41,077 nucleotides of DNA from a virus, in the IMG/VR virus record IMGVR_UViG_3300020438_000089, positions 1-41,077 of that record. One strand, given 5' to 3'. This document shows positions 15,242 to 20,688 of this stretch, in pieces; within the stretch, counting starts at the first letter, position 1, and each line of letters begins with the position of its first letter. The notes beneath the pieces were generated by a model. That model did not search any database and had not been told where the DNA came from. It was given only the letters and a program-made list of their open reading frames with translations. The position numbers and the translations under genes are program-made.

Positions 15242-15490
15242 CTACCTCCTCTTCTCATTCATCTTACATCTAATTAAGTAAGTTAAGCAAATGATATTTA
15301 CAATATAATTAAATAAACGAGGCATGTACATGTGCTCTAATTCTACAGCAAATAAACATACCTCACCAATCATCCATAATATAAGGAGTCCCCAAGAACA
15401 CCCTGTATAACCCTTCCTTAGGCATGATACTACTTCTGGAATAGCGCATATAGCCATACAGATTCCACCTATCCACCCGATTTCAATCAC
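15242..15490 (-). CDS. Three-helix membrane protein, PQ-loop/SemiSWEET-like
   Basis: The product (82 residues from GTG 15490, or 86 from TTG 15502) has three membrane helices: IEIGWIGGICMAICAIPEVV, SWGLLILWMIGEVCLFAV and FNYIVNIICLTYLI. Helix 1 ends with a Pro followed by a Glu where PQ-loop proteins have Pro-Gln, then LRKGYTG resembles the short basic loop, and helix 3 carries an Asn, as in SemiSWEET sugar transporters, which are single three-helix repeats acting as dimers. I chose GTG 15490 because GGGGG lies five bases upstream. The assignment rests on topology and weak motifs; the substrate is unknown. Confidence 0.55.
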   Translation of the reverse strand: MIEIGWIGGICMAICAIPEVVSCLRKGYTGCSWGLLILWMIGEVCLFAVELEHMYMPRLFNYIVNIICLTYLIRCKMNEKRR

Positions 15491-15500
15491 TTGGACCCCC

Positions 15501-15560
15501 AATATACAGGTTTATACAGGTTTATACAGAAAAATACAGGTTTATACAGGTTTTCTACAG
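15501..15560. repeat. Six 10-bp iteron-like direct repeats
   Basis: A 10-base unit (TTTATACAGG and close variants AATATACAGG, TTTATACAGA, AAAATACAGG, TTTTCTACAG) is repeated six times head to tail with one unit per helical turn. It stands immediately upstream of the membrane-protein gene and next to an AT-rich stretch (15576-15660). Such arrays serve as initiator-binding iterons or as stacked operator sites; the sequence does not decide between them. Confidence 0.75.
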
Positions 15561-15631
15561 AAAAAACCGCCCCCTTATATATTAATCCAGTAAGTAAAGC
15601 TCTATAATTATTCACTTTTTACATTTTCTCC

Positions 15632-15931: not shown

Positions 15932-16073
15932 ATAGCTCCTCCACATGATTTAAAAATTGTACGAAGTTATAGAACTCCGATTGTCTAAACACTTTAAATA
16001 ACAATTGCCTTTCCATTGTAGTTAATTTGTGGTATGATTCTTGCATGATAGTTTCCTTTTCCATAAAATCCAA
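15825..16073 (-). CDS. Small helical early protein, start overlapping the RusA-like gene
   Basis: The 82-residue frame has a central helix (TTMERQLLFKVFRQSEFYNF) followed by acidic residues. Both ATG 16073 (AAAGGG, five-base gap) and ATG 16046 (AAGGAA, six-base gap) are possible starts. The gene runs opposite to the RusA-like gene, and the two share their first bases. Its 3' end overlaps the next small gene by 107 bases. No function is recognised. Confidence 0.5.
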   Translation of the reverse strand: MDFMEKETIMQESYHKLTTMERQLLFKVFRQSEFYNFVQFLNHVEELYEEDYEAALRDELSKVSKGYTTGGLSVRKGTKRTR

Positions 16074-16515
16074 ACCCTTTAGCGTAAATAGAGCATACTA
16101 TAAGAACCGACAATTGACACAAGAAGCAAGGCACTGGAGAGAGTGCTTTCTACTCCAATTGCAGCAAACAGAGGTACTCCAACAAATACAATTATTAAAG
16201 AAAGCATGGAACTCAAAAGTACATGTGTTACACGTTTCTTACGATTTCTTCTATCCATATAATTTACTCCTTACAAAAAAAGGTGAAGTCTCAAGGAGAT
16301 CCATGGACCTCACCAATATTGAAAAATTAGTTCAAGATAATCTATTCGAATCACGCTACAATGGCAGAGAGATTGATGGAGTTATCATTGAAAACTTTGA
16401 CATCGATGACAAGTTTATTGTTTCTCTCCAGAGTCGGAAACTCGGACATAACCTGCCACATCACGAAATTTTGATAACCGTTCAACTTTGCCCTCTAAAA
16501 TCGTTACGTTTATAG
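16045..16515 (+). CDS. rusA: RusA-type Holliday junction resolvase
   Basis: The product (156 residues from ATG 16045) shows the RusA family plan: an N-terminal SFSIKSKPFSVNRAYYK segment, and then RRSMDLTNIEKLVQDNLFES with Asp, Asn, Lys and Asp spaced as in the catalytic DxxN..K...D motif, and the later acidic pair in FDIDDKFIV. RusA dimers resolve branched DNA before packaging. It is the only plus-strand gene within the leftward block. No Shine-Dalgarno site is obvious, unlike its neighbours, and a TTG at 16027 is an alternative start. Its last 100 bases lie antisense to a small minus-strand gene that has a strong ribosome site. Confidence 0.75.
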   Translation: MIVSFSIKSKPFSVNRAYYKNRQLTQEARHWRECFLLQLQQTEVLQQIQLLKKAWNSKVHVLHVSYDFFYPYNLLLTKKGEVSRRSMDLTNIEKLVQDNLFESRYNGREIDGVIIENFDIDDKFIVSLQSRKLGHNLPHHEILITVQLCPLKSLRL

Positions 16516-16585: not shown

Positions 16586-16898
16586 TACTTATTTTCTCCT
16601 GATCTTTTTTAAGTGTTGCACTATTTAATCCTTGCCGAAGACTCCCATACCCGTGAAAAAATTGATGGTATAACTCAGGATCCTTCCAACTATTAATATT
16701 CTTATATACATATTGAGCTGTTACTTTACGCCCATGTCTGGGAAATAACTCATGCTGTATTGATGCCCTTGAAAAAGCATAATAACCACAATAATTACAT
16801 GTCCCCTCCTCATCTACATCGGTTTCGTGGTATTGAGTATGCTGGTAATCGTGAGGCACTCGCTCCCCTAATCTACATGTACAATAATATCTAGCCAT
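16533..16898 (-). CDS. Small Cys/His-containing early protein
   Basis: The 121-residue product has CTCRLG near its start, several His residues (HDYQHTQYHE) and a CNYCGYY pair near residue 35, which together could form a zinc site. The C-terminal part is basic and helical. It overlaps the PhaR-like gene upstream by eight bases. I do not recognise the family. Confidence 0.6.
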   Translation of the reverse strand: MARYYCTCRLGERVPHDYQHTQYHETDVDEEGTCNYCGYYAFSRASIQHELFPRHGRKVTAQYVYKNINSWKDPELYHQFFHGYGSLRQGLNSATLKKDQEKISNERKQLERLNRDSSGTI

Positions 16899-17166
16899 GA
16901 ACTGTTATCCCCTGCTCTTGTAGATTATTAGAAATCTGTTTTAGGTTACGATCTTGCACACCTTCATCAAAATGTCCGATGCTACCTAAGGCTTTAACTA
17001 AGTAATGAACTGTTAAATCTTCATCGGTCTTGCTGTCTCTAATAATGAAACCTGTACCCTCATTAAATAGTGTAGCAATCTCAGGTAAAGTTATATACCT
17101 GGAAAATGTTACTGAATACAATTTACGGTTAGCGTATCTTCTAATTAAATTACCTTTAAAGCTCAT
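16891..17166 (-). CDS. PhaR-like polyhydroxyalkanoate regulator N-terminal (PHB_acc_N) domain protein
   Basis: Residues 8-66 of this 91-residue protein follow the N-terminal DNA-binding domain of PHA-synthesis regulators (PhaR, PHB_acc_N): LIRRYANRKLYSVTFSRYIT, then LPEIATLFNEGTGFIIRDSK and TDEDLT. The Arg-Tyr-x-Asn-Arg-Lys-Leu-Tyr core and the Ser-Arg-Tyr-Ile/Val-Thr-Leu box are the family hallmarks. Bacterial PhaR is longer and has a further C-terminal region; here only the N-terminal domain plus about 25 residues remain. Bacterial PhaR represses phasin and PHA genes and senses PHA. A phage copy might act on host PHA genes or on phage promoters. AAGGAG precedes the ATG. Confidence 0.7.
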   Translation of the reverse strand: MSFKGNLIRRYANRKLYSVTFSRYITLPEIATLFNEGTGFIIRDSKTDEDLTVHYLVKALGSIGHFDEGVQDRNLKQISNNLQEQGITVHG

Positions 17167-18921: not shown

Positions 18922-19010
18922 TAAAAACCTCCAGTAAGATAGTACATTGAAACACATAAGTAAAACAATACTAACATAGAACGAATAAATCCCCAATTAA
19001 ACAGTCGCAT
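18921..19010 (-). CDS. Possible 29-aa membrane peptide
   Basis: This very short frame (start MRLFNWGFIRSMLVLFYLCV) encodes one hydrophobic helix. It links its neighbours exactly: the ATG lies inside the end of the upstream gene and its TAA overlaps the ATG of the downstream gene (TAATG). No strong ribosome site is present (GGGAT about six bases upstream), so it would rely on coupling. Confidence 0.4.
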   Translation of the reverse strand: MRLFNWGFIRSMLVLFYLCVSMYYLTGGF

Positions 19011-19386
19011 AATGAATCCCATTAAATACGCTGTACGCATTACTTGATTTAGCTACTTCCTCAGTTACCTGCCTAATTTTGCCTATATGATGTATTTCGT
19101 TTGGATAATGCAACCTAGTATGACCGTCAGGGTACTGAATTGCAACGCAATCTTGCTGAAATCTATCCAAGCCAATCATTTCAATGCGCTCAATATCGTC
19201 TTGTTTTGGTAACTCAACATAAAATGTAACCTCTTTATGGTTATCATAAAAGCCTTGACCCTCAACGAAGGTAAACTTGGACTGTTCTAACATAAGTTTC
19301 AATTGATTAGTACGAGTTTCATTCTCTCTTGGTGATAATTCCTTGAGTTCTGCTGAAATAAGTGCGAATTGTTTAAAAATATTCAT
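18997..19386 (-). CDS. Early protein of unknown function (129 aa)
   Basis: The product has a helical start (QFALISAELKELSPRENETR) and a beta-rich middle (VTFYVELPKQDDIERIEMIG). No domain is recognised. AGGAGG lies five bases before the ATG. Confidence 0.7.
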   Translation of the reverse strand: MNIFKQFALISAELKELSPRENETRTNQLKLMLEQSKFTFVEGQGFYDNHKEVTFYVELPKQDDIERIEMIGLDRFQQDCVAIQYPDGHTRLHYPNEIHHIGKIRQVTEEVAKSSNAYSVFNGIHYATV

Positions 19387-19609: not shown

Positions 19610-19825
19610 TTATCCTAATTTGTCAAGCTCACCTTTTAAAACTTTTAAAGACTCTTTAGATTTCTTTACTTCTTCTAAGTGCGCTCTTTTAACGATAATA
19701 TCATCTTTAACTTCTTGAAGGTCTCTCCCGTATAAATTAGCAATCTCTACAGCATTTACTTCATCATAGTTCTTGTCTGCTTTTGCTGCTTCGATAATAT
19801 CTAGTATAAATTGTAAATTAAACAT
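19610..19825 (-). CDS. First leftward early gene, small helical protein (71 aa)
   Basis: The product is helical (FILDIIEAAKADKNYDEVNA), with a stretch EVNAVEIANLYGRDLQEVKD that could be a helix-turn-helix, followed by a coiled coil. GAGGAGG lies five bases before the ATG. It is the promoter-proximal gene of the leftward unit, about 20 bases downstream of the predicted transcription start, so it should be among the earliest expressed. Confidence 0.7.
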   Translation of the reverse strand: MFNLQFILDIIEAAKADKNYDEVNAVEIANLYGRDLQEVKDDIIVKRAHLEEVKKSKESLKVLKGELDKLG

Positions 19826-19853: not shown

Positions 19854-19882
19854 ATTATTTCATAAATGATGCTTCGTGTCAA
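19854..19882 (-). promoter_or_regulatory. Candidate sigma70 early promoter for the leftward operon
   Basis: Read on the minus strand, TTGACA (19882-19877) and AATAAT (19859-19854) are separated by 17 bases. The -35 is perfect and the -10 matches five of six. It would start transcription near 19847, about 20 bases before the first early ATG. Confidence 0.65.
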
Positions 19883-19948
19883 CTATAAAAAGAAAATAAA
19901 TCGTAATATTTTATCATATCATTATAGTATGAAATCCAGTGTTTTCTT

Positions 19949-20054
19949 GCCAAGCAAGTCTATGCATATCTCGTGCCAACTTAGTCTATGCAATTCTTGT
20001 GCCAATAAAGCTGACCTCTCTCGCGCCCAAACAATCCTAGCAAGTCTCGTGCCA
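19949..20054 (-). repeat. Tandem array of about five 26-bp repeats with a GTGCCA core
   Basis: A core reading GCCA on the plus strand recurs at 19949, 19975, 20001 and 20051, with a degenerate copy (GCCC) at 20025: spacings 26, 26, 24 and 26 bases. The best pair (19955-19980 and 19981-20006) agrees at about 20 of 26 positions. The array lies 70 bases upstream of the leftward promoter. Confidence 0.75.
19964..20054 (-). promoter_or_regulatory. Three sigma54 (RpoN)-like -24/-12 elements pointing left
   Basis: On the minus strand, TGGCAC-N5-TTGC occurs exactly at 20054-20040 (CTGGCACGAGACTTGCT) and 20004-19990 (TTGGCACAAGAATTGCA); at 19978-19964 it is TGGCAC-N5-ATGC, one base off. The consensus is YTGGCACG-N4-TTGCW. 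All three point to the early operon. They coincide with the 26-bp repeats, so they may instead be protein-binding sites that happen to fit. Confidence 0.5.
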
Positions 20055-20355: not shown

Positions 20356-20688
20356 ATGCGCAAACCAACTAAATTTAAATCAGGATGCTATAATTGGCAA
20401 ATATACTGGAGTCAGGAGGAAGCCGAAGAAATGTATGGTAAGACGGATTCGCATAATAAAGTAGTAACAATATACAAATGTAAGAATAAAGAAATTACCA
20501 GGGAAACACTACTACATGAACTACTACACGTTGTAATGGAAGATAAGGCAGAAGCCATATTTAACTTTGAGTCGGATAGCAAATCTTATGATAAAGAAGA
20601 AAATCTTATAAGATTAATATCTCCAGTGTTAATGCAATTAATCGTAGATAATCCAGAACTATGGGAGTACCTAAGTGAGCGAAATTAA
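20356..20688 (+). CDS. Small HExxH metalloprotease-like protein
   Basis: The 110-residue protein has HELLH at residues 54-58 within a helix, preceded by an ITIYKCKNKEITRE-like strand region, and a later acidic helix (KEENLIRLISPVLMQL) that could give the third zinc ligand. This arrangement is found in small phage proteins of the SprT/ImmA-like gluzincin kind. AAGGTGA lies four bases before the ATG. It is the first rightward gene and overlaps the small terminase gene by 14 bases. The target is unknown. Confidence 0.7.
   Translation: MRKPTKFKSGCYNWQIYWSQEEAEEMYGKTDSHNKVVTIYKCKNKEITRETLLHELLHVVMEDKAEAIFNFESDSKSYDKEENLIRLISPVLMQLIVDNPELWEYLSERN

Follow-up and report, generated by a model that had tools for sequence, protein, structure and literature searches.

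Phased arrays of sigma54-type sites in the control regions of a podovirus-like genome and other viruses

The analysis establishes sigma54-type sites, their conservation, sigma54 specificity and position, and the existence of phased, virus-specific arrays, starting from one array in the window, by which we mean the whole analysed stretch, the record of an uncultivated virus of 41,077 bases with 35% GC and near-identical ends. The elements in the window probably are sites for the sigma54 (RpoN) of the host, which would form a phased docking array in the control region behind a sigma70 early promoter. From the sequence evidence we infer binding by host sigma54, an effect on transcription and a role for host nitrogen or stress status.

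The divergent control region of the window

The gene set of the window is podovirus-like (TerL, portal, tail fibres, endolysin, PolA, primase-helicase and exonuclease), and no phage RNA polymerase was found among the window proteins scanned. Minus-strand genes running leftward from 19825 to 6900 carry replication functions and an S-adenosylmethionine lyase, and the rightward genes from 20356 on carry packaging and structure. The lyase is an early, anti-restriction type of gene lying directly in the leftward operon, which we take as early because this gene is within it. The array sits in the 530-bp divergent region that separates the two sets of genes, and the features of this region and its flanks are as follows.

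20356 to 20688, plus strand: first rightward gene (late module), M78/IrrE-like, 110 aa
20269 to 20307, no strand: conserved hairpin, loop GAGCGAAGCGA fixed and stem covarying, located between array and late genes
20040 to 20054, minus strand: sigma54-type element 1, TGGCACGAGACTTGC, exact, full YTGGCACG-N4-TTGCW, matrix score 20.4, the best of the window
20015 to 20029, minus strand: decayed unit TGGGCGCGAGAGAGG, from direct reading of the sequence, 25 bp to each neighbour
19990 to 20004, minus strand: sigma54-type element 2, TGGCACAAGAATTGC, exact, matrix score 18.2
19964 to 19978, minus strand: sigma54-type element 3, TGGCACGAGATATGC, one mismatch, in the -12 element, matrix score 18.6
19938 to 19952, minus strand: decayed half element TGGCAAGAAAACACT with just the -24 part, spaced 26 bp from element 3
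19854 to 19882, minus strand: sigma70-type promoter TTGACA-17-AATAAT of the early operon, consensus-level match
19610 to 19825, minus strand: first leftward (early) gene, 71 aa, function not assigned
18997 to 19386, minus strand: S-adenosylmethionine lyase (PF23780), early gene, E 4.8e-19

The first-pass annotation had described three TGGCAC-N5-TTGC elements, two exact and one with a single mismatch, all pointing at the early genes. Sequence, shuffles and matrix rank all bear this out, and the three lie on the minus strand and read leftward. Exact matches number 2 in the window against 0.03 expected, with two or more in 0 of 100 shuffles; matches with one mismatch number 6 against 1.25 expected. 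The three elements also hold the top three sigma54 matrix scores of the 41-kb window (about 18.2–20.4; next 15.0), where the maxima of 20 simulated windows ranged from 11 to 20 and the matrix describes Salmonella sigma54 sites. The -24 GG and -12 GC elements of a sigma54 promoter are thereby present, in the form TGGCAY-N5-TTGC. Of the 26-bp tandem repeat that had been proposed, the tandem arrangement stands but the exact period does not: there are five units in a 25/25/26/26-bp series, with the T of TGG at 20054, 20029, 20004, 19978 and 19952, and since two of the five are decayed, the distances between intact sites are 50 and 26 bp. Shuffled sequence folds as well as the array strand does. 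The sigma70 promoter reported just downstream of the array is also there, at 19882–19854; the first leftward gene starts beyond it, at 19825. It matches the consensus at 11/12 positions with a TG ahead of the -10, and has equivalents in relatives L004, L013, L014, L015 and L019.

Other features of the window were recorded alongside. The hairpin has an 11-bp stem and a nearly invariant loop that contains a GCGAAGC mini-hairpin; 96.4% of stem cells are paired, 10 of 13 pairs are changed on both sides, and covariation is 0.616 against 0.136 in shuffled alignments. It has no Rfam match; a role as bidirectional terminator, single-strand origin or hairpin promoter is possible. A second repeat array at 15503–15565, in which a 30-bp double repeat contains about five copies of the 10-bp unit TATACAGGTT, lies upstream of the ORF at 15242–15502 and possibly represents iterons or operators. 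Inside the leftward operon a plus-strand ORF of 162 aa (16027–16515) has homologous ORFs in the three relatives G005, G011 and G015, and the fourth-best sigma54 matrix match, TGGTATGATTCTTGC at 16030, falls at its start.

Conservation and sigma54 specificity

TerL relatives of the window phage were collected at 53 loci. Where these extend into the divergent region, most have TGGCAY-N5-TTGC there, in both orientations and with variable spacers, and the -24/-12 bases are kept with a varied spacer down to ~50% TerL identity. The first-pass annotation had named conservation of these bases in relatives as its check, and conservation of the repeats at other positions as what would speak against sigma54; it is the spacer, not the core, that varies, and the second outcome was not seen in the relatives. 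Across 24 family records the pattern gives 42 matches, nearly all in the divergent region, against 0 for a reversed control. The elements are absent from L036, L041, L042 and L047 (47–67% TerL identity, divergent region present). The -24-only half element is itself kept at 26-bp spacing, as TGGCAC in L007, L014, L015 and L019 and as TGGCGC in L004. Within the family, leftward sites score above rightward ones (mean 17.7 vs 13.9, P 0.001).

Because the sites were picked by their core pattern, only the remaining columns were counted as evidence of specificity. The reference was a matrix built from 29 intergenic Salmonella sigma54 sites identified by ChIP, which themselves score 16.0–23.2 (PMC3844500); the window sites, at 18.2–18.8 in this scoring, fall inside this training range. 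In 45 non-redundant family sites the free columns show Y-27 (37/45), G-20 (24/45), Y-16 (39/45) and W-11 (37/45), together with the R-20 of the extended sigma54 consensus. C occurs at -11 in just 2 of these sites, and this speaks against a simple TGGCA..TGCCA dyad. Scored on the Salmonella matrix, these columns lie 7.1 standard deviations above the null (z=7.1), with P 0.03 by column permutation and P 0.005 by letter permutation. A further 732 non-redundant sites from 225 other viral loci correlate with the same matrix at r=0.77 (P 0.0005 and <0.00005). Their frequencies at -20 are G.65 and A.29, compared with.63 and.34 in Salmonella, and W at -11 is.83 compared with.91. The agreement covers G/A at -20, C/T at -21 and W at -11, and the extended consensus Y-27, Y-21, R-20, W-11 appears in columns outside the search pattern. 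Taken with the -24/-12 bases kept in relatives, these data argue for a sigma54-type recognition signature. The bacterial RpoN consensus, YTGGCACG-N4-TTGCW, has the same core, spacing and degenerate positions (PMC3844500). At the sequence level the array matches sigma54 promoters, of which it is a candidate member.

Similar arrays in other viruses

Tandem pairs of sites occur in at least 119 viral stretches, against 4 for the reversed control over its full scan, and face-to-face dyads in at least 120 viral contigs against 1, so that enrichment over reversed controls is 30- to 100-fold or more. None of 398 bacterial genomes has a face-to-face dyad. The viral loci span 0.30 to 0.68 GC and hold up to 21 sites each. 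Their spacing is phased: tandem sites lie mostly 26–28 bp apart, then 35–38 and 41, face-to-face gaps are 3–7 bp with a peak at 4, and back-to-back gaps are 9–11 and 21. In L086 nine sites make up a regular lattice. Highly ordered lattices that combine face-to-face and back-to-back sites were seen at L086 2642–2852, L089 2436–2585, L160 3562–3779 and L108 328–523, with repeat periods of ~47, 41, 43 and 45 bp, respectively. Some arrays are located beside terminase genes, and among 54 loci with a large terminase of the commonest family, 53 have this gene directed away from the array. The dyads were also considered as hairpins and rejected, their N5 spacers not being complementary.

Among isolated phages, related elements are carried by the Vibrio T5-like phages D419 and pVp-1 and by Pseudomonas phage vB_PpS_SYP, where a perfect dyad lies 11 bp upstream of TTGACA; the BLAST E-values are weak and the assignment rests on the inspected sequence. 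In the Vibrio T5-like loci L295 (3880–4460) and L297 (2484–2538) the elements lie in a large non-coding region near A1/A2-type genes, and DnaA-box-like TTATCCACA sequences are found nearby. An exact 23-mer of the window repeat has no match in viral contigs, nor did BLAST with the real array from L086 return one. Plasmids gave three single-site matches only, all in Pseudomonas plasmids, and matches of a synthetic array to Gordonia and Streptomyces (18 and 26 bases, E ~7) were discarded. We found no report of phage arrays or dyads of sigma54 sites in the searchable literature, outside of which most subscription journals lie.

The viral sites differ from bacterial sigma54 promoters in being clustered at 25–28 bp or set as face-to-face or back-to-back pairs, in ignoring gene orientation outside the window family, and in having no phage activator. 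Late promoters of Pseudomonas phage YuA are reportedly RpoN-dependent, as its 2008 genome paper is said to have found. The YuA record (AM749441) annotates sigma54-type -24/-12 promoters, a precedent for such promoters in a phage, but these are single, of weak consensus and in the late region, and its genome has no TGGYA-N6-YTGC match.

Candidate binders and modes of action

The only genes common to the 19 array genomes are DNA polymerase (13) and TerL (12), and neither phmmer nor jackhmmer found a common phage DNA-binding protein in them. No phage-encoded sigma54 and no phage sigma54 activator were found. Candidates for a common binder were rejected one after another: T5-type A2 (phrog_1725) and phrog_624 belong to different families, and a PhaR-like regulator tracked the motif in the window's family and yet is missing from 30 other contigs that carry arrays. 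The gene for the latter (16891–17166, minus strand) encodes 91 aa with a PF07879 DNA-binding domain (E 2.9e-15), the granule-binding part apparently missing; many window-family members have homologues, and none were found in GenBank phages. Known PhaR operators are TGCRNYGCA palindromes (PMC6201568, PMC12849132) and differ from the array motif in half-site layout, the TGC-3-GCA palindrome not being found in it. PhaR is a regulator of polyhydroxybutyrate, and the phage protein may possibly interfere with host carbon storage.

With no shared phage binder, sigma54 or activator, host sigma54 is the best candidate. The binder would be a host protein whose specificity does not change between diverse hosts, a description that fits sigma54 and, to our knowledge, no other protein. 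Vibrio and Pseudomonas, the host genera of the named carriers, have RpoN. For the window phage no close relative was found among GenBank phages; a sizeable TerL relative (36%, a weak match) turned up on a single bacterial contig, from an Alphaproteobacteria bin that has RpoN. This is a weak hint at the host, and the contig has no comparable array.

Sigma54 requires an ATP-driven activator, and its sites keep polymerase parked until a signal comes; the holoenzyme forms silent closed complexes until an enhancer-binding protein fires it. On the reading we favor, host sigma54 would dock on the array, most likely within the sigma54-RNA polymerase holoenzyme and with such silent complexes as the default state, and by its occupancy would modulate the neighbouring sigma70 promoter and with it early transcription. 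In the window family the stronger leftward sites would perhaps also start leftward transcription once a host activator is on. This is consistent with the kept core, the agreement with the Salmonella matrix, the lack of a common phage gene beyond DNA polymerase and TerL, and the RpoN-bearing hosts of the named carriers. Position fits as well: of 212 cases, 44 have the array behind a sigma70 promoter that points outward, where 8 would be expected and where inward promoters number 9. The nearest site is opposite to such a promoter in 31 cases and in the same direction in 14. In L101, L162 and L174 an element pair recurs upstream of sigma70 promoters, in one to several places each, resembling a general upstream element, some sites being opposite to the promoter. 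Against docking stand the random orientation relative to genes in the wider class, dyads 3–7 bp apart that should not hold two holoenzymes at once, a footprint of ~24 bp implied by the spacings that is small for RNA polymerase, the lack of a phage activator, and the four relatives that have the region without the elements.

The original proposal, sigma54 promoters for the early genes, is less probable as a full account, though not negligible. Here the sigma70 promoter would operate together with starts ~12 bp past each TTGC, made by sigma54-RNA polymerase and a host activator. In favor of this, the three window sites all point at the early genes, leftward family sites are the stronger, scores are in the range of real promoters, and YuA has annotated "-24/-12" promoters. 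However, although the elements point toward the driven gene in the window and show a bias that way in the family, they do not in the wider class: in codirectional intergenic regions site strand matches gene direction in 136 of 309, that is, the two are unrelated, on crude ORF calls made with no gene finder. This counts against a general promoter role because real promoters should show strong bias. Neighbours at 26-bp spacing would probably be mutually exclusive, half sites with the -24 part alone are kept, the early genes already have a sigma70 promoter, and no phage activator was found. Since orientation is random and dyads are common in the wider class, promoter activity would not be the general role of the arrays; in the window family it is plausible, the leftward sites being stronger.

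The first-pass annotation had offered repeated protein-binding sites or origin iterons as its alternative. The elements do look like binding sites, apparently with the specificity of sigma54; the iteron part is unlikely, no initiator gene common to the 19 array genomes having been found. Operators or iterons of a phage repressor, replication initiator or packaging protein that coincide with the sigma54 consensus are unlikely. Plasmid initiator arrays likewise combine direct repeats and inverted pairs by an AT-rich tract, and the phased lattice, the dyads and a position either in the main control region or next to terminase genes would suit such a protein. Unlike those arrays, the phage ones share no initiator gene and have sigma54's specificity, no phage gene is common to array genomes, the PhaR-like candidate is excluded, and the chance is very small that an unrelated protein would prefer the same ten core bases and degenerate positions. 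Still more doubtful is a sponge, in which replicated arrays would titrate scarce host sigma54 and shut down host sigma54-dependent responses. Orientation independence and the many sites per locus would agree with it, but the window has three intact sites only, and a sponge needs neither phased geometry nor a place behind a sigma70 promoter. Chance or plain repeat expansion without function is very improbable: the sites are repeats and hence not independent, but they are kept across divergent relatives with varied spacers and far exceed the reversed controls.

More than 100 phased, virus-specific clusters in unrelated phages suggest that many phages use or hijack host RpoN in an undescribed way. 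Tentatively, host sigma54 sites in many unrelated phages may form a nucleoprotein lattice that is specific to viruses and does not serve as a set of promoters. Next to early sigma70 promoters it would capture sigma54 or the silent holoenzyme and act as a regulatory switch, an insulator or a sponge, linking phage development to the sigma54 state of the host. The dyad form, absent from the sampled bacterial genomes, may serve as a viral marker, and with related elements in named Vibrio and Pseudomonas phages the idea is open to laboratory testing. If phages across metagenomes build such arrays, host nitrogen, stress and envelope damage may feed into the early infection decision; alternatively, if the arrays are general, phages may disarm sigma54.
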